The notes beneath the pieces are model-generated. The model saw nothing but the letters and a program-made list of their open reading frames with translations. It did not search any database and was not told the origin of the DNA. A stretch of DNA of 64,000 nt, from assembly GCA_013822015.1 (NCBI GenBank), contig PNJU01000003.1, forward strand, positions 99,454-163,453, read 5' to 3'. This stretch comes from Candidatus Puniceispirillum sp. (GTDB lineage Bacteria; Pseudomonadota; Alphaproteobacteria; Caedimonadales; UBA1908). The translations under genes were made by a program, and so were the position numbers. Shown here piece by piece: positions 51,944 to 63,800 of this stretch (its first letter is position 1; every line of letters begins with the position of its first letter).

Positions 51944-53461
51944 TTAGAGAACGCGGCGCTGGGCTGCAAGCCTTGCACCTTGCCCTTCATCAAGCGCACC
52001 TAGCAGTCTTTCAACAAGTGATTTTCTTCCAGTAATATGGCGTACCATCTCATGAAACTCTGGATTATCAAGGCTTTCGTGGTAGTTATAGCTGACATTC
52101 AACACGCGAGGCACAAAAGACCCGATAAATTCTACAGCCTTAGGCAGCATAGCTGGAGGCATCTTGAAACCAAGCTCAAAATCCGTTGGATACCTTTTCA
52201 AAGCATGCATAAAAAGATTGAGTGAACCGGCATCCACGCGCTCTTTTTTTGGCACTTCAACTGTCAAACGTGCGACTGGATGCTGAGCAAGGAAGCGAAG
52301 CATAGAAGGCATATCACGCTCAATACCTGCATTGTGGAAATTAAACGCCAGGCCGTTCACGAGCCTATTTTCTAAGGCAAAACTCATGTCCCGCATCCCT
52401 TGAGCATCTACACGAGAAAAATAAAAAGCATTATCCGCGGCAACATGCGGGTCTTTGGAGAGGTGCCTTACAAAGCGCAAATTAAAGGCGGGCACATGGA
52501 TGTCAAGAGACTCCAAGGATGGGTGCGTGTGCAACACCTGTCTGAGTTTTTGGATAAAAACTGGATCTGTTCCATCAAAGAGTGTCTTATCTCCATCAGT
52601 GTTCGCTCTCAGCTTGACGCTTTTTAAGGCATGATTATTTCCAACGAGATCAAGAAACTCATAGCCGACTCTTTTATTTTGTTCATTGTCCTCACTCAGA
52701 CCTCTTAGATCAGCGCTTTTAAGGCTAAATTTCTCTAAGCGAGGAGACATCCCCATCAACATCACAAAACCCTCAAACGGCCTTAGATCCATAGGAAAGT
52801 CCACGTTTACATTCGTAAGCCTAGGAAAAGCCATATCGTCTTCAATCTGATCAAGGTCTAACCTGTCGTCAGACTTCAAGGTTATGGCCTGTACCGTCTT
52901 CTGGCGGTTGGCTAATAGATCTTCGAAGCGGCTTTTGGCCAGCTTTCGAGCTAAATCAACGCCCTCATATCCCTCCATGCATCCGTCTACTATTTCATGG
53001 AACATGCTCCCATATTTGATGGTTTTTAAGGTAGGATGTGTGTCGGCAACCTCTTGAAGCTTGCCAAGAAAATAACCCTCAATGGGATTTTGGCGCAAAT
53101 CTAGTTTCTCAAGCGTATTATTTTCATGTAACGTATTGATGAGAATCAAGGCAGACTCGCTCCCAATAAGACAATTTCGCAAATCCAGCTCTGTTACAGT
53201 CGTGTTTGTGGCAAGGGCGTTGGCAAGATCTTGTATCATTGTAGGATTTGTTTGAAAACGCGACATATTAGTCTTGGCGGACGCTGTATTATTTCTCACC
53301 TCCATTATCCAATTGGCAAACATTGAAGGCTGACTACTTGCCGCGACGGCTTGGGGGGCATTGGCCTCCACGTCGTCTTGAACGACAGCCGTGGCATACG
53401 CATGTGACATACATCCAAAAACCGTTGAGAGGATACTGAGTGTATAGAGCTTTTTTTTCAT
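51944..53461 (-). CDS. Secreted leucine-rich-repeat protein 2
   Basis: A 505-residue paralogue of LRR protein 1. Signal peptide MKKKLYTLSILSTVFGCMSH with cleavage near AYA-TAV; then NTTVTELDLRNCLIGSESAL and ENNTLEKLDLRQNPIEGYFL repeats, a middle section with FPRLTNVNVDFPMDLRPF, and the shared C-terminal GRKSLVERLLGALDEGQ. AAGGTG lies eight bases before ATG 53461. N-terminal near-identity with LRR 1 contrasts with strong divergence in the second half, as if the 5' end was recently duplicated or converted while the rest was under diversifying change. Confidence 0.84.
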   Translation of the reverse strand: MKKKLYTLSILSTVFGCMSHAYATAVVQDDVEANAPQAVAASSQPSMFANWIMEVRNNTASAKTNMSRFQTNPTMIQDLANALATNTTVTELDLRNCLIGSESALILINTLHENNTLEKLDLRQNPIEGYFLGKLQEVADTHPTLKTIKYGSMFHEIVDGCMEGYEGVDLARKLAKSRFEDLLANRQKTVQAITLKSDDRLDLDQIEDDMAFPRLTNVNVDFPMDLRPFEGFVMLMGMSPRLEKFSLKSADLRGLSEDNEQNKRVGYEFLDLVGNNHALKSVKLRANTDGDKTLFDGTDPVFIQKLRQVLHTHPSLESLDIHVPAFNLRFVRHLSKDPHVAADNAFYFSRVDAQGMRDMSFALENRLVNGLAFNFHNAGIERDMPSMLRFLAQHPVARLTVEVPKKERVDAGSLNLFMHALKRYPTDFELGFKMPPAMLPKAVEFIGSFVPRVLNVSYNYHESLDNPEFHEMVRHITGRKSLVERLLGALDEGQGARLAAQRRVL

Positions 53462-53659: not shown

Positions 53660-55177
53660 TTAATGCATCCTGATGTGGGGCTGTGCTCTCGTTTGCGCAA
53701 CTGTATCTAACGTGCTCAGCAAGCGCAATGTCAGGGACTCTCTCAGATTCAAGCGACTGATCAGAGCGTCAAAATTGCCTTTCCTGAGATCTTCGTGGTC
53801 CTGAAAAGTCACTTTTTTGACGCAAGGAACCGGATCTTCCCAAAGAAGTGTCTGCGCAATGTGTGGCAGAAGAGCTCTGGGAAGCTTTAAGTGCAACTCA
53901 ACATTCCATATGCGGGTTTTCAAAAAGTCCAGAAAGCTGGTGAGTGCTGGCATATCCACCCTTTCTCTGGTAGCAGACGCCGTCAGACTCACCTGTTCAA
54001 AGGGAAAGCGTGAAAAGACCTCGCTCACGCGCCCTATGTCTCGGTTTGAATATGCGGTATCCAAATCCAAAGACAGACGGCGCACAAGTTTTTTTTCAGC
54101 AACAAAACGCAACCCATTGATATCAGCGTCACTTGTGTGCGTGATGCTCAATGCGCTTACGGGGACATCTCCCCCCTCCCCATCAAAGTGCCATGGTTTT
54201 GAAATGTCCACTTTAAAGTTGGGAACTTGAATGACCAAATCATTTAAAGTACGCAGTGACTGTGTCATGCCATCGACAAACAGTGGATCCTCTTGATCAA
54301 AAACTGAACTGCCCTCGGGGTGATCAATCCTCAAACATGCACGCCGCAATTGAGGGCTCCCATTGACGGCGTCAAAGAAAGCGTATCCCAGCGCTCTATG
54401 ATCTTTCCTGCTCGCAGGAAGATCATTAGGAGCAGGACACTTTGCTTTAAGCGTGAAAGACACTAAACGCGGTGACACACGCATCATAGTCAAAAAATTT
54501 TCTATTTCACAAAATCTCATTGGTAATGCATAAAATGCACTTCTAAGAAGCGGAAAGTGCATATCACTTTGAAAATCATCCATTGTAAGAAGATGTTGTG
54601 CCTGTATTGAAATTGTTTCGACCGATGCCGTACCATTGACCAAAAGATTTGCGATCTTATGTGACGCCTGTCGGTGCGCAATTTCTCTGCCTTCCTCTTG
54701 CAATTGACGCAAGTCGATATGAAAGTTGCAATCATACAGGACAGTTTTTAAGGTTGGGTGTGTCTTTGTGCACTCTAACAGTTCGCCCAGAAAGAAGCCG
54801 CCAATGAATGTATCGCGCACGTCAAGTTTTCGAAGGGTTTTATTTGTTTTCAGCGCCTCAATAAGTCTTTTTGCAAACATATCACCCAGCAAGGACTCCT
54901 TCAAATCAAGCTTAACAATGGATGTGTTTGTTGCAAGAGCCGCGGCAAAGGCACGTGTCTCGCAATCACTCATATAATAACCGGACATGTCCAGTTTGGC
55001 TGGCGCAGTATTATTTGCAACAATTTCTATCCAGTCAGACATTGAATCTGGTTCGCTACTTGCAGCAATGGCTTGAGGTGGCATAACGTCTTCATCATCT
55101 TGAGCTGTACCATAGAGATGCGTTAAAGAAAGCAAGACACTCCACAAAACACTTATTGTATAAAATTGTTTTTTCAT
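53660..55177 (-). CDS. Secreted leucine-rich-repeat protein 3
   Basis: A 505-residue paralogue, more distant than LRR 1 and 2 are from each other. ATG 55177 starts MKKQFYTISVLWSVLLSLTH with cleavage near YGTA-QDD; the frame is open to 55294 without a leader-like sequence. LRR units NTSIVKLDLKESLLGDMFAK and KTNKTLRKLDVRDTFIGGFF, and the linker PPQAIAASSEPDSMSDWIEI matches PQAVAASSQPSMFANWI in LRR 2. The C-terminal GRKSL motif is altered to LRESLTLRLLSTLD. The order of divergence suggests an older duplication followed by a newer one that gave LRR 1/2. Confidence 0.83.
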   Translation of the reverse strand: MKKQFYTISVLWSVLLSLTHLYGTAQDDEDVMPPQAIAASSEPDSMSDWIEIVANNTAPAKLDMSGYYMSDCETRAFAAALATNTSIVKLDLKESLLGDMFAKRLIEALKTNKTLRKLDVRDTFIGGFFLGELLECTKTHPTLKTVLYDCNFHIDLRQLQEEGREIAHRQASHKIANLLVNGTASVETISIQAQHLLTMDDFQSDMHFPLLRSAFYALPMRFCEIENFLTMMRVSPRLVSFTLKAKCPAPNDLPASRKDHRALGYAFFDAVNGSPQLRRACLRIDHPEGSSVFDQEDPLFVDGMTQSLRTLNDLVIQVPNFKVDISKPWHFDGEGGDVPVSALSITHTSDADINGLRFVAEKKLVRRLSLDLDTAYSNRDIGRVSEVFSRFPFEQVSLTASATRERVDMPALTSFLDFLKTRIWNVELHLKLPRALLPHIAQTLLWEDPVPCVKKVTFQDHEDLRKGNFDALISRLNLRESLTLRLLSTLDTVAQTRAQPHIRMH

Positions 55178-55407
55178 TGCGTATTTATTTTCTATATCTG
55201 ATTTCTGATCTGATTCCATATGCACAAATTTAAATCTTGTCAACAATAGAGACGACTTGTTTGTCAAAACTGGATTAAGGTTTTTTCTGCTCATGACGCG
55301 CGCCCGTATTAAGATTTTCGATGCCTCATCACGACGACTTCATTGCGGGGAGACACTATATCGTGACTGGCATCTTTAATGGGACAGCGTCAAAAAGAAC
55401 GCTTACG

Positions 55408-55462: not shown

Positions 55463-56515
55463 TTAGGCCGCTTGGGTATCACACATCTGGTCTTGCCCAG
55501 GTCCCTCGAGATAATAGTCAAGGGTCAAGCGCAGGGCTTGTTCCATATCATACTTAGGCTCCCACCCAAGATGGGTTTTGGCGTTTTCAATGGAGGGAAT
55601 GCGAAAGCCAAGATCCTGGTAGCCCGCACCGTAGTGCTTTTGTGAATCCACGGAAATGATCTTCACTTGCTGGGCGCGCTCTTGATAGCGCGGGTAGGTC
55701 TTGGCCAAGTCCACAAGTTTTGTGGCGAGCTCGCCAATGGAATAATCGTTCTTGGGGTTACCGATGTTGAAAATGCGCCGGCTTGCAGCCCCATTTTTAT
55801 TCTCAATAATACGCATCAAGGCTTCAATACCGTCATCGATATAGGTGAACGCGCGGCGCTGGGCCCCTCCGTCCACCAGGCGAATTTCCCCATGGTAAAG
55901 GATATTACTGATGAACTGGGTCACAACGCGTGAGCTGCCTTCTTTTTGGGCGTTCAAGCGATCAAGCTTTGGACCCAGCCAATTGAAGGGACGGAAGAGT
56001 GTGTAATCAAGGCCTTCCTCGCCGTAGGCGTAAATCACGCGGTCCATCATTTGCTTGGCGCAGGAATAAATCCAGCGCTGCTTATGGATGGGCCCCAGAA
56101 CGAGGGACGTGGTCTCCTCGTTAAATTCGCTCTCCTGGCTCATGCCATAAACCTCTGACGTGGATGGGAAAATCACACGCTTCTTGTAACGCACACACTG
56201 GCGCACGATTTCAAGGTTCGCCTCAAAGTCGAGCTCAAAAACGCGAAGGGGTTCCTTCACATACAAAGCCGGATTGGCAATGGCCACCAGCGGCAGCACC
56301 ACGTCACACTTTTTCACATGGTACGCCACCCACTCTTTATTGATGGTGATATCCCCTTCCACGAAGTGAAATCGCTTATGCTCAAGGCACGTACCCAGTT
56401 TATCTGTGGACATATCCATGCCGTACACTTCCCAAGAAGTATCTTTCAGGATGCGTTCAACAAGGCTGCTACCGATAAAGCCGTTCACACCAAGGATCAG
56501 GATTTTGAGGGACAT
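55463..56515 (-). CDS. arnA: UDP-glucuronate C4'' decarboxylase (ArnA dehydrogenase domain only)
   Basis: Converts UDP-glucuronic acid to UDP-4-keto-arabinose with NAD+. In enterobacteria this is the C-terminal half of the ArnA fusion; here it stands alone at 350 residues and no formyltransferase half is present. It opens with VNGFIGSSLVERIL (Rossmann), followed by FVEGDITINKEWVAYHVKKC and LPLVAIANPALYVKEPLRVF. The active site PSTSEVYGM with YSCAKQ (Tyr and Lys), and GYQDLGFRIPSI (Arg), matches ArnA. It starts 3 bp behind arnC in a tight operon. Assignment to the Ara4N pathway is supported by arnB, arnC, arnE and arnT next to it. Confidence 0.92.
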   Translation of the reverse strand: MSLKILILGVNGFIGSSLVERILKDTSWEVYGMDMSTDKLGTCLEHKRFHFVEGDITINKEWVAYHVKKCDVVLPLVAIANPALYVKEPLRVFELDFEANLEIVRQCVRYKKRVIFPSTSEVYGMSQESEFNEETTSLVLGPIHKQRWIYSCAKQMMDRVIYAYGEEGLDYTLFRPFNWLGPKLDRLNAQKEGSSRVVTQFISNILYHGEIRLVDGGAQRRAFTYIDDGIEALMRIIENKNGAASRRIFNIGNPKNDYSIGELATKLVDLAKTYPRYQERAQQVKIISVDSQKHYGAGYQDLGFRIPSIENAKTHLGWEPKYDMEQALRLTLDYYLEGPGQDQMCDTQAA

Positions 56516-56518
56516 AGT

Positions 56519-57526
56519 TTAAGACTCCACTTTCGTCGTTTTTTTGCGTTTTGGGGCGGCAGGCACTTGGGCTTCAGGCGCCTCTTCTAAGATTTCGCGA
56601 ATTAAAAAGCGTGGGCGGTGACGCACCACTTCATAGATGCGCCCCACGTACTCACCCACAATACCAATACCTGTGATGGCCACGCTCACAAGGAAGAAGA
56701 GGATGGCAAAGAGGGTAAAAAGACCTTGCGCCTCAGGCCCAATGATAAGGCGGCGCAGGAGCATGTATCCTACAAGGCAACCGCTGAGCGCTGATACGAG
56801 GAAACCAAAGACCGTAAAGACGTGAAGCGGCGCCATGGAAAAGCCCGTGAACAAATCAAAGGTCACGCGCACGAGGCGGTAGAGATCGTACTTGGACTCG
56901 CCTTCCGCCCGTGCCACATGTTCCACACCGATTTCCGTTGGGTTGGCGGCGAACTTGTATCCAAGGGCAGTCACGAAAGTAGACGATTCCTCGCTCTGGG
57001 TAATCAGATCCACAACCCGGCGTCCATACGCGCGGAACATGCAACCCTGGTCTTTAATATGAATATCTGTCACGGCGCCACGGATCTTATTCAAAATCTT
57101 GGACGGAAGGCTGCGCAGAAAGTACGAGTCATCACGCTCCTTGCGGTATGAGCCCACATAGTCGTGCCCCTTTTCATACTCCGCCAAAAGCTTTGGAATC
57201 TCTTCAGGCGGGTTCTGCATGTCCGCGTCCATGTTGACGATGACCTCTCCGCGCACGCGCTCAAAGGCCGCCATAATGGCCATGTGCTGACCAAAGTTAC
57301 CATTGAACTCAATGACGCGAATTTGTCCTGGGCGACGCTTGTGAAAATCCGCTAAAATCTCGCTGGAGCGGTCCCGGCTCCCATCATTGGTGAAAAGAAT
57401 CTCATAGGACTTGCCCAGCTTGTCACACACGGCCGTCAAGCGTGTGTATAAGGACTCAAGGCAGTCTTCCTCGTTATAAACAGGGACCACAACGGACAGA
57501 TAAACACTTTGGGGTTCTTTGATCAT
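56519..57526 (-). CDS. arnC: Undecaprenyl-phosphate Ara4N transferase
   Basis: GT2 enzyme moving the aminoarabinose unit from UDP to undecaprenyl phosphate at the inner membrane. The 335-residue protein has VYLSVVVPVYNEEDCLESLY, LFTNDGSRDRSSEILADFHK, NFGQHMAIMAAFERVRGEVI and VNMDADMQNPPEEIPKLL, and two C-terminal membrane helices (VFTVFGFLVSALSGCLVGYM, LFAILFFLVSVAITGIGIVG). In E. coli ArnC uses formylated Ara4N; which form is used here is open because no formyltransferase is seen. Start overlaps arnB by 4 bp. The basic tail APKRKKTTKVES is unusual. Confidence 0.92.
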   Translation of the reverse strand: MIKEPQSVYLSVVVPVYNEEDCLESLYTRLTAVCDKLGKSYEILFTNDGSRDRSSEILADFHKRRPGQIRVIEFNGNFGQHMAIMAAFERVRGEVIVNMDADMQNPPEEIPKLLAEYEKGHDYVGSYRKERDDSYFLRSLPSKILNKIRGAVTDIHIKDQGCMFRAYGRRVVDLITQSEESSTFVTALGYKFAANPTEIGVEHVARAEGESKYDLYRLVRVTFDLFTGFSMAPLHVFTVFGFLVSALSGCLVGYMLLRRLIIGPEAQGLFTLFAILFFLVSVAITGIGIVGEYVGRIYEVVRHRPRFLIREILEEAPEAQVPAAPKRKKTTKVES

Positions 57527-58686
57527 CGACGATTCTCTTTCAGGATTGACGTGATAGCCTCAACCACACGGTCTTGGGCGTCTGGTGTCATGGAGGCCCA
57601 CAAAGGCAAGCTCATGATGCGCGCGCCCACATCCTCGGCTATGGGGAAGGATCCTTCACCCCAGCCGTAGTTTGTGCGGTAATAGGAATACAAGTGCACG
57701 GGCGTATAGTGCACACCCACGCCAATGTTGTACTCCTTCATCTTGGCCACAAAGGCGTCCCTTGTCAGGTTCACCTTATCGAGATTCAAAAGAGGTGTGT
57801 AGATGTGCCATGCGTTGAGGCATGTGTAATCTGGCGCCGTTGGCAGGGTCAGCCCCCCCTCGCAGGACAAAAGACTGTTGTACCGGGCAACATGGGTTTG
57901 CCTTGCCTCATTCATGGCATCGAGCTTGTCGATCTGGTGAATGCCAAGGGAAGCCTGCAAATCTGACATGTTGCATTTGTATCCAGCCTCCACCACGTCA
58001 AGTGTTTGGCTGCCTTCTTTGCTGTAGCGGTTCCAAGCGTCACGGTCAAGACCATGGAGGCGCAGCTGTGTCACCTTCTTGGCAACGTCCGCGTCGCGGG
58101 TGACAAGACAGCCCCCTTCGGCGGTGGTCATGTTCTTGCACGGGTGAAAGCTAAAAACCTGAATATCGCCAAAGCTGCCTATGCGCTTACCTTTGTACTG
58201 GGCGCCAATGGCATGGGCTGCGTCCTCAATGACGCGCAGGCCCTTGGCCTTAGCAAAGGCATAGAGCGCGTCGCAGTCCACGGGCAGCCCCGCAAAGTGC
58301 ACAGGCATGATGGCCTTGGTACGCGGGGTCACGGCCTTTTCTAAAAGCCCTATATCCATGTTAAAGGTTTTGGGATCAATATCCACGAGGACAGGTGTGG
58401 CACCCGTGTGCACAATAGTGTTGAGGGTCGCCACAAAGGTCATGGGCGTTGTAATGACCTCGTCGCCAGGTCCCACGCCAACGGCTTTGAGGGCTAGGTG
58501 AAGGCCGGCGGTGGCACTCGATAGGGTGAGGGCATGGGGCGCCCCAAGATACGCGCGAAACTTTTCCTCAAGGAGTTGCACGCGCGGACCCGTTGCGATC
58601 CAGCCGGAGCGCAAGCACGCCACGACTTCGGCAATTTCTTCTTCACCCACATCGGGACGCGTAAAGGGTAAAAATTCCTGGGACAT
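57523..58686 (-). CDS. arnB: UDP-4-keto-arabinose aminotransferase
   Basis: PLP-dependent DegT/DnrJ/EryC1-family enzyme making UDP-Ara4N from UDP-4-keto-arabinose and glutamate. The 387-residue protein has MSQEFLPFTRPDVGEEEIAE, GDEVITTPMTFVATLNTIVH, VIEDAAHAIGAQYKGKRIG and the PLP-lysine motif FSFHPCKNMTTAEGG (Lys about 184), as in ArnB. ATG 58686 fits the family start; the frame extends to 58725 (TTG) overlapping arnE. The end overlaps arnC by 4 bp. Generic sugar aminotransferases look similar, but the surrounding arn genes settle the role. Confidence 0.93.
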   Translation of the reverse strand: MSQEFLPFTRPDVGEEEIAEVVACLRSGWIATGPRVQLLEEKFRAYLGAPHALTLSSATAGLHLALKAVGVGPGDEVITTPMTFVATLNTIVHTGATPVLVDIDPKTFNMDIGLLEKAVTPRTKAIMPVHFAGLPVDCDALYAFAKAKGLRVIEDAAHAIGAQYKGKRIGSFGDIQVFSFHPCKNMTTAEGGCLVTRDADVAKKVTQLRLHGLDRDAWNRYSKEGSQTLDVVEAGYKCNMSDLQASLGIHQIDKLDAMNEARQTHVARYNSLLSCEGGLTLPTAPDYTCLNAWHIYTPLLNLDKVNLTRDAFVAKMKEYNIGVGVHYTPVHLYSYYRTNYGWGEGSFPIAEDVGARIMSLPLWASMTPDAQDRVVEAITSILKENRR

Positions 58687-58708
58687 GTTTGTTGCTTTCT
58701 GACATTCT

Positions 58709-59086
58709 TTAACTACGTGAGACAAGATAAACCCCCACTAAAATCACACCAATACCAACCCAGCGCACGGGCGTTATCATCTCCCCCAAAATCCATGAGC
58801 CGCACAGTGCCGTCAGCACATACCCCAGGCTCGACAAGGGATAGGCAACGCTCACCTCGACCTTGGACAAGACGAATAGCCATAAAGCCACGCTCATCAC
58901 ATAAAGTCCAAGTCCGCCAATAATGGCAGGATTCATGCACAAGCGCCACGCAAGGTTTGGCAGGCCCTGGAGCGCAAAGCACATCTCGCCCACACCGCGC
59001 ACCCCAAGTTTTAAAAGAATCTGCGCGCCCGTATTGAGAAATACGCACAGCAAAATCAGGGGCAGTGTCGTCAGTGTTTGGGTCAT
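58709..59086 (-). CDS. arnE: ArnE/ArnF-like small flippase subunit
   Basis: A 125-residue protein with four hydrophobic helices of the EamA/SMR type: PLILLCVFLNTGAQILLKLG, PAIIGGLGLYVMSVALWLFV, SKVEVSVAYPLSSLGYVLTA and WVGIGVILVGVYLVSRS. In enterobacteria ArnE and ArnF together flip undecaprenyl-phosphate-Ara4N to the periplasm; only one such gene is present here, so it may act as a homodimer or pair with a gene elsewhere. The start overlaps arnT by 4 bp (ATGA). 22 bp separate it from arnB. Confidence 0.86.
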   Translation of the reverse strand: MTQTLTTLPLILLCVFLNTGAQILLKLGVRGVGEMCFALQGLPNLAWRLCMNPAIIGGLGLYVMSVALWLFVLSKVEVSVAYPLSSLGYVLTALCGSWILGEMITPVRWVGIGVILVGVYLVSRS

Positions 59087-60747
59087 GGACGCGGTCCGCT
59101 GGTTAACAAAATCTCTTTCTTTGTGCGCGCAACTTCTTGAAGTTTTTCACCCAAAAGGGCCTCCAGGCGCGCCACAAAATCAACGCTGGTTATTATATAG
59201 AACACCCCGCCGCCTCTGTACACCTTTAAAAAATGTTGCCTCGACATCATCCACGCACCTGTGTCTTCTACGCCCATGCCAAAGGCAAGCTCGCCTTGCC
59301 AGTTCACAACGGTGATGGTTTGCCCCAAATAAGGCGGCAGATCCTGATAGTAGCGCTCGAAGGCCACAAGCCGCGCGCCGTCCTTGCGTCCCGCTTCAAT
59401 GAGGGGCACAAAGGATTTAACGGAGCGCGTATCAAGGTGGGGCCAAGCGGCGTTGAGTAGAAACAAGAACCCAAGCCCCGTCACAAGGGTTTGGACACGC
59501 AGGCGCTGCCACGATGTTGTTGTCAAGAAAAGCGCGCCCATGACGCCCAAGAAAGCAACAAGGGCGAGCCACACCGGCGCAAACGCCCCCTCCCCCAATA
59601 TATCCTGGGCAAAAAGCGCGATGGGAACTGCTACGGCCAAAACCCACAAAACCGCTGCCACGGTGCGCCCTATGCGTCTTATCTCGACACCTGGCACACT
59701 GTCCCTTGCAAGAAAGACGCCGGTCATCACCGCTAAGGGGTGAAAGATGCACAGGATGTAAGGGATAAGCTTGGATTTCGAGGCCGAGAAAAAGCCAAAC
59801 ATAAAGATGCTCCAGATCATAAGAAGCATGAAGGCTGCGTCGGGAGCCGACGCGTCTTTATTCCTGAAGGCGTTTTTCACGCGCTGCCAAGGCTCTTTGA
59901 GGGAACCCACCACAAAGGGCGTCCAAGGCAGGAGCCCCACAAGCAGCACGGGCACGAAAAACCACAGGGGCTGAAAGCGCCCGTGGACGGTGGTCAGATA
60001 CCGCTCAAAATGCTCATGGATGAAGTAGAACTGGGCAAACTCAGGGTTTTTTAAGGACGCTAGGATATGCCAAGGTGCGGCAATCAAGAAGAAGAGCGCA
60101 ATACCCCAAGGCGTGAAGGCAAGGCGAACGGGGCGCAGGCTCCCAAGACAAGCCGCCCACACGAGGATCGCGCATCCTGGCAAAACCGCGCCGATAAGTC
60201 CCTTGGTCAAGACCGCCAGGGCCATGGAGGCGAAAAATCCCCCCAGAAGCACGCGACGTCTTCTTGGCGCCTCTTCGGCATATGCCGCTCCAAAGGACAG
60301 AAGCGCCAACGCCATCCACGTGCACACGGCCATGTCTAAAATGAGAAGCCTCGCCAGGGCAAAGTACAAAGTACTTGTGGCAAGAAGGGTGCCGGCCCAT
60401 AGACCGGCTGCGCGCCCAAAAAAGCGCCGACCAAAAGCGTACACGCCCAAGACCCCAAATAGGGCCATGAGCGCCGGAACAAGGCGCATGGCCCACTCCT
60501 GGATACCAAAGACCTTTTGGGTCAGAGCCGTCATCCAATACACAAACGGCGGCTTTTCGAAATACTTCACGCCGTTCAGGCGAGGCGTGACAAAATCATG
60601 GGTTGCCAGCATTTCCCGGGCAATTTCGGTGTAGCGCCCCTCATCGGGTGCGGATAGAGGCCGCCCCCCCGCCATAAAGGTAAACACAAACCCCGCAAAC
60701 AGGGTCAGCAGCAATAGATCAAGGAAAAAGGTCTGTCTTTTGGTCAC
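59083..60747 (-). CDS. arnT: Lipid A aminoarabinose transferase ArnT (GT83)
   Basis: Periplasm-facing glycosyltransferase adding Ara4N to lipid A phosphates, which gives resistance to cationic peptides. The 554-residue protein has about 12-13 membrane helices and the signatures PLSAPDEGRYTEIAREMLAT and FEKPPFVYWMTALTQKVFGI of the GT83/PMT family. GTG 60747 is used; a TTG at 60765 would add six residues. First gene of the operon in transcription order. Other GT83 enzymes add mannose or galactosamine, but the neighbouring arnA/B/C point to aminoarabinose. Confidence 0.9.
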   Translation of the reverse strand: MTKRQTFFLDLLLLTLFAGFVFTFMAGGRPLSAPDEGRYTEIAREMLATHDFVTPRLNGVKYFEKPPFVYWMTALTQKVFGIQEWAMRLVPALMALFGVLGVYAFGRRFFGRAAGLWAGTLLATSTLYFALARLLILDMAVCTWMALALLSFGAAYAEEAPRRRRVLLGGFFASMALAVLTKGLIGAVLPGCAILVWAACLGSLRPVRLAFTPWGIALFFLIAAPWHILASLKNPEFAQFYFIHEHFERYLTTVHGRFQPLWFFVPVLLVGLLPWTPFVVGSLKEPWQRVKNAFRNKDASAPDAAFMLLMIWSIFMFGFFSASKSKLIPYILCIFHPLAVMTGVFLARDSVPGVEIRRIGRTVAAVLWVLAVAVPIALFAQDILGEGAFAPVWLALVAFLGVMGALFLTTTSWQRLRVQTLVTGLGFLFLLNAAWPHLDTRSVKSFVPLIEAGRKDGARLVAFERYYQDLPPYLGQTITVVNWQGELAFGMGVEDTGAWMMSRQHFLKVYRGGGVFYIITSVDFVARLEALLGEKLQEVARTKKEILLTSGPRP

Positions 60748-60814
60748 GTGGGCGTCTCTTATCAACTGTCTTGGCAGCTTACGTTCACCACGTCAAATGT
60801 CAATGGGAGAGGCA

Positions 60815-60847: not shown

Positions 60848-63800
60848 TTAGAGGGATTGGCCGTCATCGCCTGGTCGAAAGCTCGAGCTTCCTCGTATGA
60901 CTCCTGGGACAGAAGGAGCCCCACTCTGTGCCGTTAAAGCGTCCCCCTGACTTGCCTGGCGACTACCGAGTCCCATGCTTGAGGCAAGGGAGCGCAAACC
61001 ACCCAAGAAACGCCCACCAAATGAGGTTGTTCCACCATCGGTTTGGCCTTCTCCACTGGAGCGTTGCGCAGTGGTTACAACCAGAGGTTGGGTGTTGTCA
61101 GAAGGAGGGGCCGCAGGAGCTGTGGTTGTGCGCGCATCAAGCATGTCTGAGCCTGCACCCAGGTCTGCCCCATTCCCCTCATCACTTGGCATAAAACGAG
61201 AAGTGCTCGATGATGGTTGAGTCAGGTTGCCATATGGAGTCCCCATCCCATAGGAGGCTCTTGATCGTGGAAAGAGCGTAATTGGCAGCAACCCACCATG
61301 GCCTGGAAAGTAAACACTCCTTGATAGAAATGGCTGTCGGTCCACCGATGGAGGCTGTGTACCACCAGGCGTTGAAACACGGCTCTTGTAACCAGTAAAT
61401 GTTTCAGCGCTTGACGACAGGACTTGCAACAAGGCGGATCCTGGCGCAGCTGGGGCTTCGCTCACCGGCACAGATGTATCCCCCCCGTCAACTGGGCTCG
61501 TGGAAAAAGCCGCTGAAGGCAAAACAGAAGGCTGCGGCGCGTGCCCGCTGGAAGAGCTTGACGCACTTGGCGCCGGGTCCGCCGACGGCACTTGGTTAGA
61601 CGAACCAGCACTCGTGTCTGTGCCAGGCGTCCTTGAAGAGGACGACCTCGGGGGCGCTGGGCGAATGACTAACTTTGGTGTGGGATCAACCTCTTCCTTG
61701 AGCGCATTATAGGCAGCTTCCACACGCTCCTTGTCTTGTGTCGACAGCGCTGGCCTTTGCAAGTAGTTAGAAACTTCTTTCAAAACATCTCTTTGTTTCT
61801 CAATTGGCTGTCCTTTAGCAGCACTCATTTTCTCAAGCATACTCTCAGGTGTCACTTTTTTAATCACAATGCCTGGTCGCGCAGGTGCCGTGCTTGTGCC
61901 AGGCTGGGAAAGTGGCAGGCCCGGTGTACCGCCATGTCGGCCGGGCAAGAGCAGAGATTTGGACATGTCTGTTGTCGTGGTGGACGACGAAGGAGCGTCC
62001 GCGCGACGCTTAAGGGCGGCTTCGAGCTCACTGGGATTAACGCTTTTGGATGGGTCTCCAGATAACGTTTGCGCCTGCTGTGCGCTTCTCAGTGGAACCT
62101 TGGATGGATCAAAGGGTGGCATGACCATTGGACCGACAGGGCGCTGTGTTGAGGAAGAGGAAGATGATGAGGAGCCAGGCCTTGGAGCCCTTGGACCAGC
62201 TGTCGGATTGAGGGCTTTTTGCATTCCCACAAGCTCTGCACGCTCAGAATCGCTCGCCGTGCTTAACAAGGTTCTCACCTCTTTCTTCAGGGCCTCTTTC
62301 CCCTCGGGAGCAAGGGTTCCTAGCTCGCCCATGCGCTCGCGGACTTTTGCGATGCGCTGTGCGCGCGCGGCCGCCCTTTGTGCGTCACGATCGTGGGTAC
62401 TGGAAAGCTCCTTGCCACCCTCAATCTCCTGGAGCAACGAGGTCTTAGGTGCTGGAACCGGTGCCGATGTGGAAGCCTCGTTTAAAGCGCTTGAGTTAGT
62501 GTTTGAGTCAGTGGTAGTGGACGGATGGACTTCCTCATAGGCCGAGAGCTTGTCCTTCACGGCTGCCAAACGTGAAAGTTGGCCTGATGACAGTGACGAA
62601 GTGACTTTTTCCACATTTGCCACGCTTTCGCGCACTTGGCGCACCTCCTCCTGGGATGGTGCTTGCGAAGTCGCCCCAGCTTGATCCGCACCAGGCAGAA
62701 CATTGGCAAGGGATTCGAGGGCAGTGACCTGCCCCTCATACTGAGCAGCGCGTTTCTCTTCTAGTGTACTTTGTGTTGCGCGCCTTCCTTCCCTTGTGGG
62801 TAGGCGGCGAGCGCCTGCTTTTGGGGCGGGCCTATCTTTCAAGACATCTAAGCTGCCTTGAAGTCCTGTGGCTCTGGTTCCTTGCGGCAAATCACCTAAC
62901 GACTGAGTAGGCCTCGTGCTCCCAGGTGTTGGCGTTGGCAAATCAGTCTCGCTTTGCGTGTGCGTTGGTGTTGAAGGCTCAGGTGTACCACCCACAGGCT
63001 GGGAGGATGAAGGCGCTGTGCTCGCAGATCCATGGCTGGTCGTGCCTGCTGGGTCACCCGCTACTGGTGCCACCGTCTCAGCAGATGCATGCGGCTCCGC
63101 TGGCAGTGTGGGCTCAGGTGAAACCGCAGGCGCAGTTGTTGTGCTTGATGTGGATGTGGTAGACATAGGTGTTGGCTCAGGTGACGGCTGTGTGCTTGGT
63201 GAGGAGGAAGCCGTGTGCGCAGACGACGGAGCTCCCAAAACACGCGCCAAGAGATCTGTCGTCTCCCGCTCATGCACTACGTCTTTCATATCATCAAAAT
63301 ACTCGCGCGCTTGCGCAAGGTGCTTCCTGTCTTGTGCAGACAAGGAAGATAGCCGCGACTCAAGCGCTAAATAGTCATTCAAGACACCGCGCAATCTCGC
63401 TTCTCGCACTGTTTGGGACACGTTGCTTCCAATCACCCGGAGGGCACGTTGACTCACACCCTCAGGCGATTTTTCTTCAATTGTGCGACGCGTGTCTTTC
63501 TGGGAGGCTTTTTTCTCCTCTGCAACCCCTAAGGCCGCGAGCTTTGCCTTTACAGCGCGCTCATTGGACTCAAGAATCTGAAGCTCAGAAGAGTTCAGCT
63601 GGTTGCTGCCCCTCCACCACGTAAAGCTAGCCAACGCATTCTCTAAACTTGATTTTGAGATAGACCCGCTCGAGAGCTGATCTGCGAAGCGCTGGTTTGT
63701 CACCAATGCTTTATGGAGCACACCCTTCGGGGTGGTCAGCGCAGTTGTTGTGGCTGAGGGCAAAGTGCGCGGAGCCTGCGAGGAATGAGACGACGCTGTC

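Follow-up and report, generated by a model that had tools for sequence, protein, structure and literature searches.

A five-gene aminoarabinose operon without formyltransferase and ArnD genes in Candidatus Puniceispirillum sp. and related bacteria

Aminoarabinose (Ara4N) is a protective, positively charged sugar attached to the cell surface. Here, we describe an Ara4N operon that carries neither the formyltransferase gene nor the gene for the deformylase ArnD, found in a 64,000-nucleotide stretch of Candidatus Puniceispirillum sp. (the window: assembly GCA_013822015.1, contig PNJU01000003.1, positions 99,454-163,453, forward strand). We consider it likely, with a probability of roughly 0.72, that this is a complete, functional and formyl-independent operon in which ArnC transfers unformylated uridine diphosphate (UDP)-Ara4N directly. 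Formylation and deformylation would then not be needed, because ArnC would take UDP-Ara4N as it is. As read from the DNA, the gene content, gene order, catalytic residues, genome-wide absence of both formyl genes and recurrence across families point this way. In particular, this form of the operon is not peculiar to its own genome. It is found repeatedly among Alphaproteobacteria, as well as in a few Gammaproteobacteria, and because the same gene order returns in relatives, the arrangement is more than chance.

The operon consists of five collinear open reading frames on the minus strand (window 60765-55463), in the order T-E-B-C-U. The original prediction had placed an operon with ArnT, one ArnE-like protein, ArnB, ArnC and a decarboxylase at this position, and the family matches bear it out. 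In the usual full operon of its relatives, which we call the long form, the order is T-E-B-C-F-U-D, with F (formyltransferase) and U (decarboxylase) unfused and D standing for ArnD; exceptions to this order exist (e.g. L111). The short form is the usual long-form order minus F and D. The features are as follows.

59083..60765, minus strand: ArnT-like lipid A aminoarabinosyltransferase (PRK13279, 220 bits; cut-off 567)
58709..59086, minus strand: single EamA/SMR-type flippase subunit, ArnE/ArnF-like (ArnF model PRK02971, 48.5 bits; ArnE model PRK15051, 38.4 bits)
57523..58725, minus strand: ArnB-like pyridoxal phosphate (PLP) aminotransferase (PRK11658, 408 bits; cut-off 631)
56519..57526, minus strand: ArnC-like undecaprenyl-phosphate sugar transferase (PRK10714, 303.5 bits; cut-off 529)
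56516..56518, no strand: 3-bp gap between ArnC and U4kpxs, the usual place of F in long-form operons (T-E-B-C-F-U-D versus T-E-B-C-U)
55463..56515, minus strand: stand-alone UDP-glucuronic acid (UDP-GlcA) oxidative decarboxylase (U4kpxs), equivalent to the ArnA C-terminal domain (PRK11908, 585 bits; cut-off 294)

Only the decarboxylase scores above its curated NCBIfam cut-off. ArnT, ArnE/F, ArnB and ArnC are divergent family members, because their NCBIfam scores fall below the curated cut-offs. For the small flippase protein this holds for both the ArnE and the ArnF model, while EamA (PF00892) is above cut-off; where two subunits, ArnE and ArnF, would be looked for, the operon has one small EamA/SMR protein that matches both models weakly. 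The ArnB-like protein reaches 363 bits on the PseC model versus 408 on PRK11658, and the solved ArnC chains 9hwj, 9bhc and 8vxh match the window ArnC at E ~1e-80.

The last gene had been described as the decarboxylase half of ArnA. The decarboxylase is present and 56% identical to the E. coli ArnA C-terminal domain, but its match far over the cut-off to a stand-alone family (PRK11908, named 'bifunctional UDP-4-keto-pentose/UDP-xylose synthase') indicates a stand-alone family member, not the broken half of a fused ArnA. The missing part is thus a separate neighbouring gene. According to the accessible part of PMC12650200, most species have the two ArnA domains unfused, and fusions occur chiefly in Gammaproteobacteria; that part makes no mention of operons lacking the formyl half. 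The genes are tightly packed, though the 4-bp overlaps that had been predicted occur at only two of the four junctions (ArnT/ArnE and ArnB/ArnC): with the listed TTG start, ArnE and ArnB overlap by 17 bp, and ArnC and U4kpxs are separated by 3 bp. The listed start of ArnT is also TTG, with an in-frame GTG at 60747 as a possible alternative.

The five proteins suggest the following route. A UDP-glucose dehydrogenase encoded elsewhere would make UDP-GlcA, which the stand-alone decarboxylase would convert to UDP-4-keto-pentose and ArnB would transaminate to UDP-Ara4N. ArnC may then put the unprotected Ara4N directly onto undecaprenyl phosphate. Flipping of the lipid-linked sugar would fall to the single ArnE/F-like subunit, which might act as a homodimer, and ArnT would move the sugar onto its presumed acceptor, lipid A. 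The pull usually credited to formylation would be replaced by transfer and export. As for the first step, the genome encodes two nucleotide-sugar dehydrogenases (463 and 409 bits). The best model for the former is the UDP-glucose 6-dehydrogenase TuaD (557 bits, below the cut-off of 700), and the latter is UDP-N-acetylmannosamine-dehydrogenase-like. This dehydrogenase family is found in 21/22 short-form genomes; the search did not find it in G009.

Catalytic residues are kept along the route. ArnB K197 falls in the column of E. coli K188, which we take to be the PLP lysine, and this column holds Lys in every row (22/22 short-form, 56/56 other). The columns of ArnA S433, E434, Y463, K467 and R619, presumably the active-site residues of its dehydrogenase/decarboxylase domain, correspond to window S120, E121, Y150, K154 and R305; one of the 24 short-form rows has C in the S433 column, and the other four columns are invariant. 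ArnT has its C-terminal domain (Arnt_C, PF18583; 33.8 bits, cut-off 26.5) and the motifs RY and YFEKP (R44-Y45 and Y68-P72, including Y45 and K71). R255 and E492 of ArnT, likewise conserved, probably match R254/E493 of the B. cenocepacia enzyme, a sequence outside our alignment, as described in the part of PMC5377068 available to us.

These residues also bear on whether the operon has a different product, that is, whether UDP-Ara4N or another 4-amino pentose is made and the polyprenyl-linked sugar goes to an acceptor other than lipid A. Rhizobium RgtE is an ArnC-like enzyme that works without formylation, its sugar being galacturonic acid. Another is the ArnC-like GtrB, which works without formylation on glucose (PMC4728340, in the part available). 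Together with the below-cut-off scores of ArnT, ArnC, ArnB and ArnE and with short-form loci that have no ArnT nearby (4 of 24), they lend this idea some weight. The ArnT C-terminal domain and motifs, the catalytic residues of the decarboxylase and ArnB, and a gene order equal to that of a full Ara4N operon minus F and D speak against it, and we regard a different product as improbable.

We now turn to the missing genes. The genome (1.98 Mb, 18 contigs, 99.7% complete) has one match to the formyltransferase domain PF00551 (Formyl_trans_N), and this is Fmt (TIGR00460, 298 bits; cut-off 201.5), located in a def-fmt-truA cluster. On the stand-alone ArnA N-terminal model NF005414 nothing exceeds the cut-off of 316 genome-wide, the sole match being Fmt at 143 bits, and extra formyltransferase genes like those in other short-form genomes (see below) are absent at E 0.001. 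The NodB-type deacetylase domain PF01522 also has a single match, a PdaB/PgdA-like protein that is not ArnD and whose N-terminus resembles a signal peptide by eye. The ArnD model NF011923 has no match in the genome; as a positive control, E. coli ArnD was found by both PF01522 (40 bits) and NF011923 (523 bits). The predicted absence of the formyltransferase and ArnD therefore withstands the genome-wide check, which turned up only Fmt and the PdaB/PgdA-like protein; the idea that F and D lie elsewhere in the genome is rejected by these domain and model searches. An assembly gap is unlikely given the contiguous operon, the completeness of the genome and the agreement of 28/28 short-form handles, including the single-contig G005.

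This joint absence extends to other genomes. Both genes were searched for in 33 handles, five long-form and 28 short-form; the latter represent 27 genomes (G361 and G397 are the same), and several are metagenome-assembled genomes (MAGs) of unstated completeness. A formyltransferase above the NF005414 cut-off was found in 5/5 long-form and 0/28 short-form handles. The same was true of ArnD, where 15 of the short-form handles were searched directly and 13 via a draw of 386 genomes across the class. F and D are thus present together in the five and absent together in the 28. The predicted complete, simplified route holds up on genomic grounds, with an intact, conserved five-gene operon and this joint absence.

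It could be argued that Fmt moonlights as the UDP-Ara4N formyltransferase and that peptide deformylase or another enzyme strips the formyl group. The N-terminal domain of ArnA is homologous to Fmt, the Fmt of this genome scores 160 bits on the ArnA model, and def and fmt are adjacent. On the other hand, 5/5 long-form genomes have a dedicated F above the curated cut-off and 4/5 also have a lower-scoring Fmt-like match; because the two coexist there, Fmt does not replace F in these genomes. Moreover, the Fmt in question is above the Fmt cut-off and in the usual def-fmt-truA cluster, and all 28 short-form handles lack F and D alike. We thus judge moonlighting very improbable.

Alternatively, the amine may still be protected, by another group or by unrelated enzymes, such as a GNAT acyltransferase paired with an amidase of neither NodB nor YdjC type. 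In the related lipid A amino-sugar pathways of Francisella (FlmF2/NaxD) and Bordetella (LgmA/LgmC) the amine is protected by acylation; NaxD and LgmC are, we assume, YdjC-family deacetylases. The genome does have its one NodB-type deacetylase. However, this enzyme is PdaB/PgdA-like and secreted-looking, although the cytoplasmic side is where deprotection should take place, and no sixth gene for acylation or deacylation is present within the window operon. NodB-type enzymes were not found in four of the eight decarboxylase-bearing genomes of the order: G001, G005 (single contig, 96% complete), G008 (85%) and G009 (89%). The YdjC-type family (PF04794) was found in 0/11 genomes of the order, this one included, and deacetylation of that type is rejected. 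Overall, we consider other protection unlikely, though the least so of the alternatives weighed here, and favour direct transfer of unformylated UDP-Ara4N.

The relatives show how widely the short form is distributed. Within the order, the decarboxylase is present in 8/11 genomes, and no fused ArnA was found among the 11. The T-E-B-C-U arrangement is intact in six of the eight (the genome of the window, G005, G006, G007, G008 and G010), and in G009 it is interrupted by a contig end. In G001 (L038), B-C-U is kept, ArnT and ArnE are absent from the cluster and a gene for an Mrp-type P-loop NTPase adjoins. Two genomes of the order with no strong decarboxylase match, G003 and G004, encode formyltransferase-like domains within long open frames (1155 and 574 amino acids in G003, 658 in G004). 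Across the class, 17 of the 386 genomes drawn have a strong decarboxylase match (E 2e-118 or better), 15 without and two (G138, G245) with an adjacent formyltransferase. ArnD was found in G138 and G245, plus a weaker 109-bit match in G069, which has no strong decarboxylase match. Thirteen of the short-form genomes from the class fall outside the order. In 10 of them T, B, C and U form a single cluster; G187 is missing B locally, and in G139 and G231 U stands by itself.

Searching with the decarboxylase alignment yielded 590 confirmed loci, of which the best 80 were compared. The closest among them, 74% identical, is from a Candidatus Odyssella MAG (Holosporales, Paracaedibacteraceae, NCBI taxonomy). 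Within the stretches of these best 80, F is present in 70 and D in 58, and neither in eight (L091, L094, L098, L099, L106, L150, L152, L161). Of 104 loci, with the window and E. coli counted in, the full set T, B, C, F, U and D is present in 40; another 19 carry just T, B, C and U, and among these L106 duplicates L076 (same contig). Outside Alphaproteobacteria the short form occurs in a gammaproteobacterial MAG (L094), in a Coxiellaceae MAG with no local ArnB (L150) and in the cultured gammaproteobacterium Cysteiniphilum litorale (L152; genome 3.2 Mb), which has E-B-C-U and no ArnT in the stretch. Two short-form loci, L079 and L150, read T-C-U with no ArnB nearby.

This distribution helps to weigh whether the operon is a dead remnant that lost F and D through reductive evolution. 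The order has small genomes (1.1-2.0 Mb), and some short-form loci have no local ArnB or ArnT. Yet the five window genes are open, tightly packed and keep their catalytic residues, ArnC is 82% identical to that of same-genus genomes, and many families share the short form, as does C. litorale with its larger genome. Intact reading frames and conservation reject decay, and a dead remnant is extremely improbable in our view. Two non-adjacent genes that are meaningful only as a pair are absent and the remaining order is kept, a pattern that speaks for a functioning short route and against decay or a gap in the assembly.

If ArnC takes an unformylated substrate, its sequence may differ between the two forms. 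We compared 24 short-form with 61 long-form sequences, 85 of 92 in total; those left out were overlong readings (L129, L114, L163), sequences under 300 amino acids (L039, L153, L158) and L106, which shares its contig with L076. Residues D100, D102, R128, D159 and R206 of the window ArnC are conserved in both forms. Of these, D100/D102, R128 and R206 align with GtrB D94/D96, R122 and R200, the Mg and acceptor-phosphate residues according to the available parts of PMC4728340 and PMC9927302, and GtrB D157 is opposite ArnC M163. The only well-filled column that fully separates the groups is window V221 (E. coli L220), with Leu in 61/61 long-form and V, I, Y or M in 24/24 short-form sequences; two further disjoint columns are mostly gaps. 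The next residue (window T222) is N in 60/61 long-form and T, A, G, S, N or Y in short-form sequences. In a held-out check of 59 loci, which took in the six overlong or short sequences, 53 yielded a residue, several from one genome, and 46/46 agreed (Leu in 45/45 long-form, V in the single short-form case, L039). The contrast is not merely a class marker, since four alphaproteobacterial long-form ArnCs (L086, L087, L113, L118) have Leu. V221 aligns with GtrB F215, as fixed by the difference between the 5EKE (F215A) and 5EKP chains at that column, and T222 aligns with A216. In the part of PMC4728340 available, F215A marks a functionally relevant region and compromises activity, and mutation of A216 abolishes it.

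Several observations weigh against a formyl-independent route. In the known pathway, only N-formylated UDP-Ara4N is a substrate of ArnC, and on this ground the formyl cycle is regarded as necessary (PMC12748117, in the part available). Among the best 80 of 590 loci, 14 of the 70 with F have no D in the stretch (several are ended by contig ends), and L100 and L144 have D without F. In L100, an alphaproteobacterial MAG, the decarboxylase adjoins ArnD and the 18.5-kb stretch has no B, C, T or F; this locus may break the rule that F and D occur together. The four short-form loci without ArnT in the stretch are L038, L098, L099 and L152, and ArnB is absent from the stretch in two of 24 (L079, L150). 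The deacetylase search of the window's genome covered NodB-, ArnD- and YdjC-type enzymes, not PIG-L-type amidases. As for the whole-genome searches, the Odyssella MAG G393 showed not even Fmt, G010 has a weak formyltransferase-like gene (57 bits), and 4/28 short-form handles (G139, G120, G359, G394) have more than one sub-cut-off NF005414 match. The extra genes of G120 (L177) and G359 (L178), which encode stand-alone N-formyltransferases, adjoin a NeuC-like UDP-N-acetylglucosamine 2-epimerase, in G120 also a PIG-L deacetylase, and these loci look like an N-formyl nonulosonic acid cassette. In G139 the extra gene adjoins a short-chain dehydrogenase/reductase-like gene. In G394 (L259, contig 78), the second match lies in a long, nonribosomal peptide synthetase-like open frame that joins the formyltransferase domain to an AMP-binding one, and a weak match in G009 is a PurU fragment. 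Finally, the short/long label needs about three switches on the ArnC tree (one on well-supported branches), independent pairs number three on the best tree and one on supported branches, ordinary ArnC clades also show one to three fully different columns, and just one held-out case is short-form. Because the groups are phylogenetically clustered, the V221 contrast is only suggestive: a lead, but weak as independent evidence.

Beyond this operon, it is possible, though we put it forward tentatively and with some doubt, that formylation and deformylation form a removable module, that formyl-free ArnCs take UDP-Ara4N with selectivity set at the juxtamembrane V221 position, and that the formyl-free form is the commoner one in Alphaproteobacteria (15/17 of the genomes with a strong decarboxylase match in the draw of 386). 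A recurring and otherwise complete operon without formyl genes would mean that a different ArnC can make the cycle dispensable, and the question why E. coli depends on it becomes accessible to direct testing. In practical terms, annotation rules, and inhibitors aimed at the formyltransferase or ArnD, would miss short-route organisms. Lipid A could be analysed in a cultured carrier, C. litorale DSM 101832. In the literature, as judged by titles and opening lines and mostly excluding subscription papers, we found no arn operon without both formyl steps.

Adjoining the operon on the minus strand (window 51944-53461 and 53660-55294) are two neighbouring, similar-looking proteins with leucine-rich-repeat-like stretches, with N-termini that look secreted by eye and no Pfam match at E 0.001. 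Upstream (60848-63763, minus strand) is a 971-amino-acid, Ser/Thr/Pro-rich low-complexity protein with no Pfam match. By eye, a GC-rich hairpin with a T run lies between its gene and ArnT.

Compared with known systems, the operon shares with arnBCADTEF (pmrHFIJKLM) of E. coli and Salmonella the proteins ArnT, ArnB and ArnC, an ArnE/F-like subunit, the decarboxylase and the catalytic residues. It differs in having no formyltransferase domain and no ArnD, a separate decarboxylase, the order T-E-B-C-U and one flippase subunit instead of two. With the unfused long-form operons of Proteobacteria (e.g. L092, L113, L164), variants of which occur in Verrucomicrobiota and Geobacteraceae, it shares their usual order of T, E, B, C and U and the decarboxylase family; those operons differ by F between C and U, D after U, and Leu at the V221 column of ArnC. 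The U4kpxs of Ralstonia solanacearum is, we presume, an enzyme of the PRK11908 family, of which the last gene of the window operon is an above-cut-off member. GtrB (Synechocystis sll0501, PDB 5EKP/5EKE) belongs, like ArnC, to the polyisoprenyl-phosphate glycosyltransferases and transfers its sugar without formylation. It differs in its donor, UDP-glucose, and is the more distant match to the window ArnC (phmmer 197 bits, versus 274 for the E. coli-type ArnC 9hwj).

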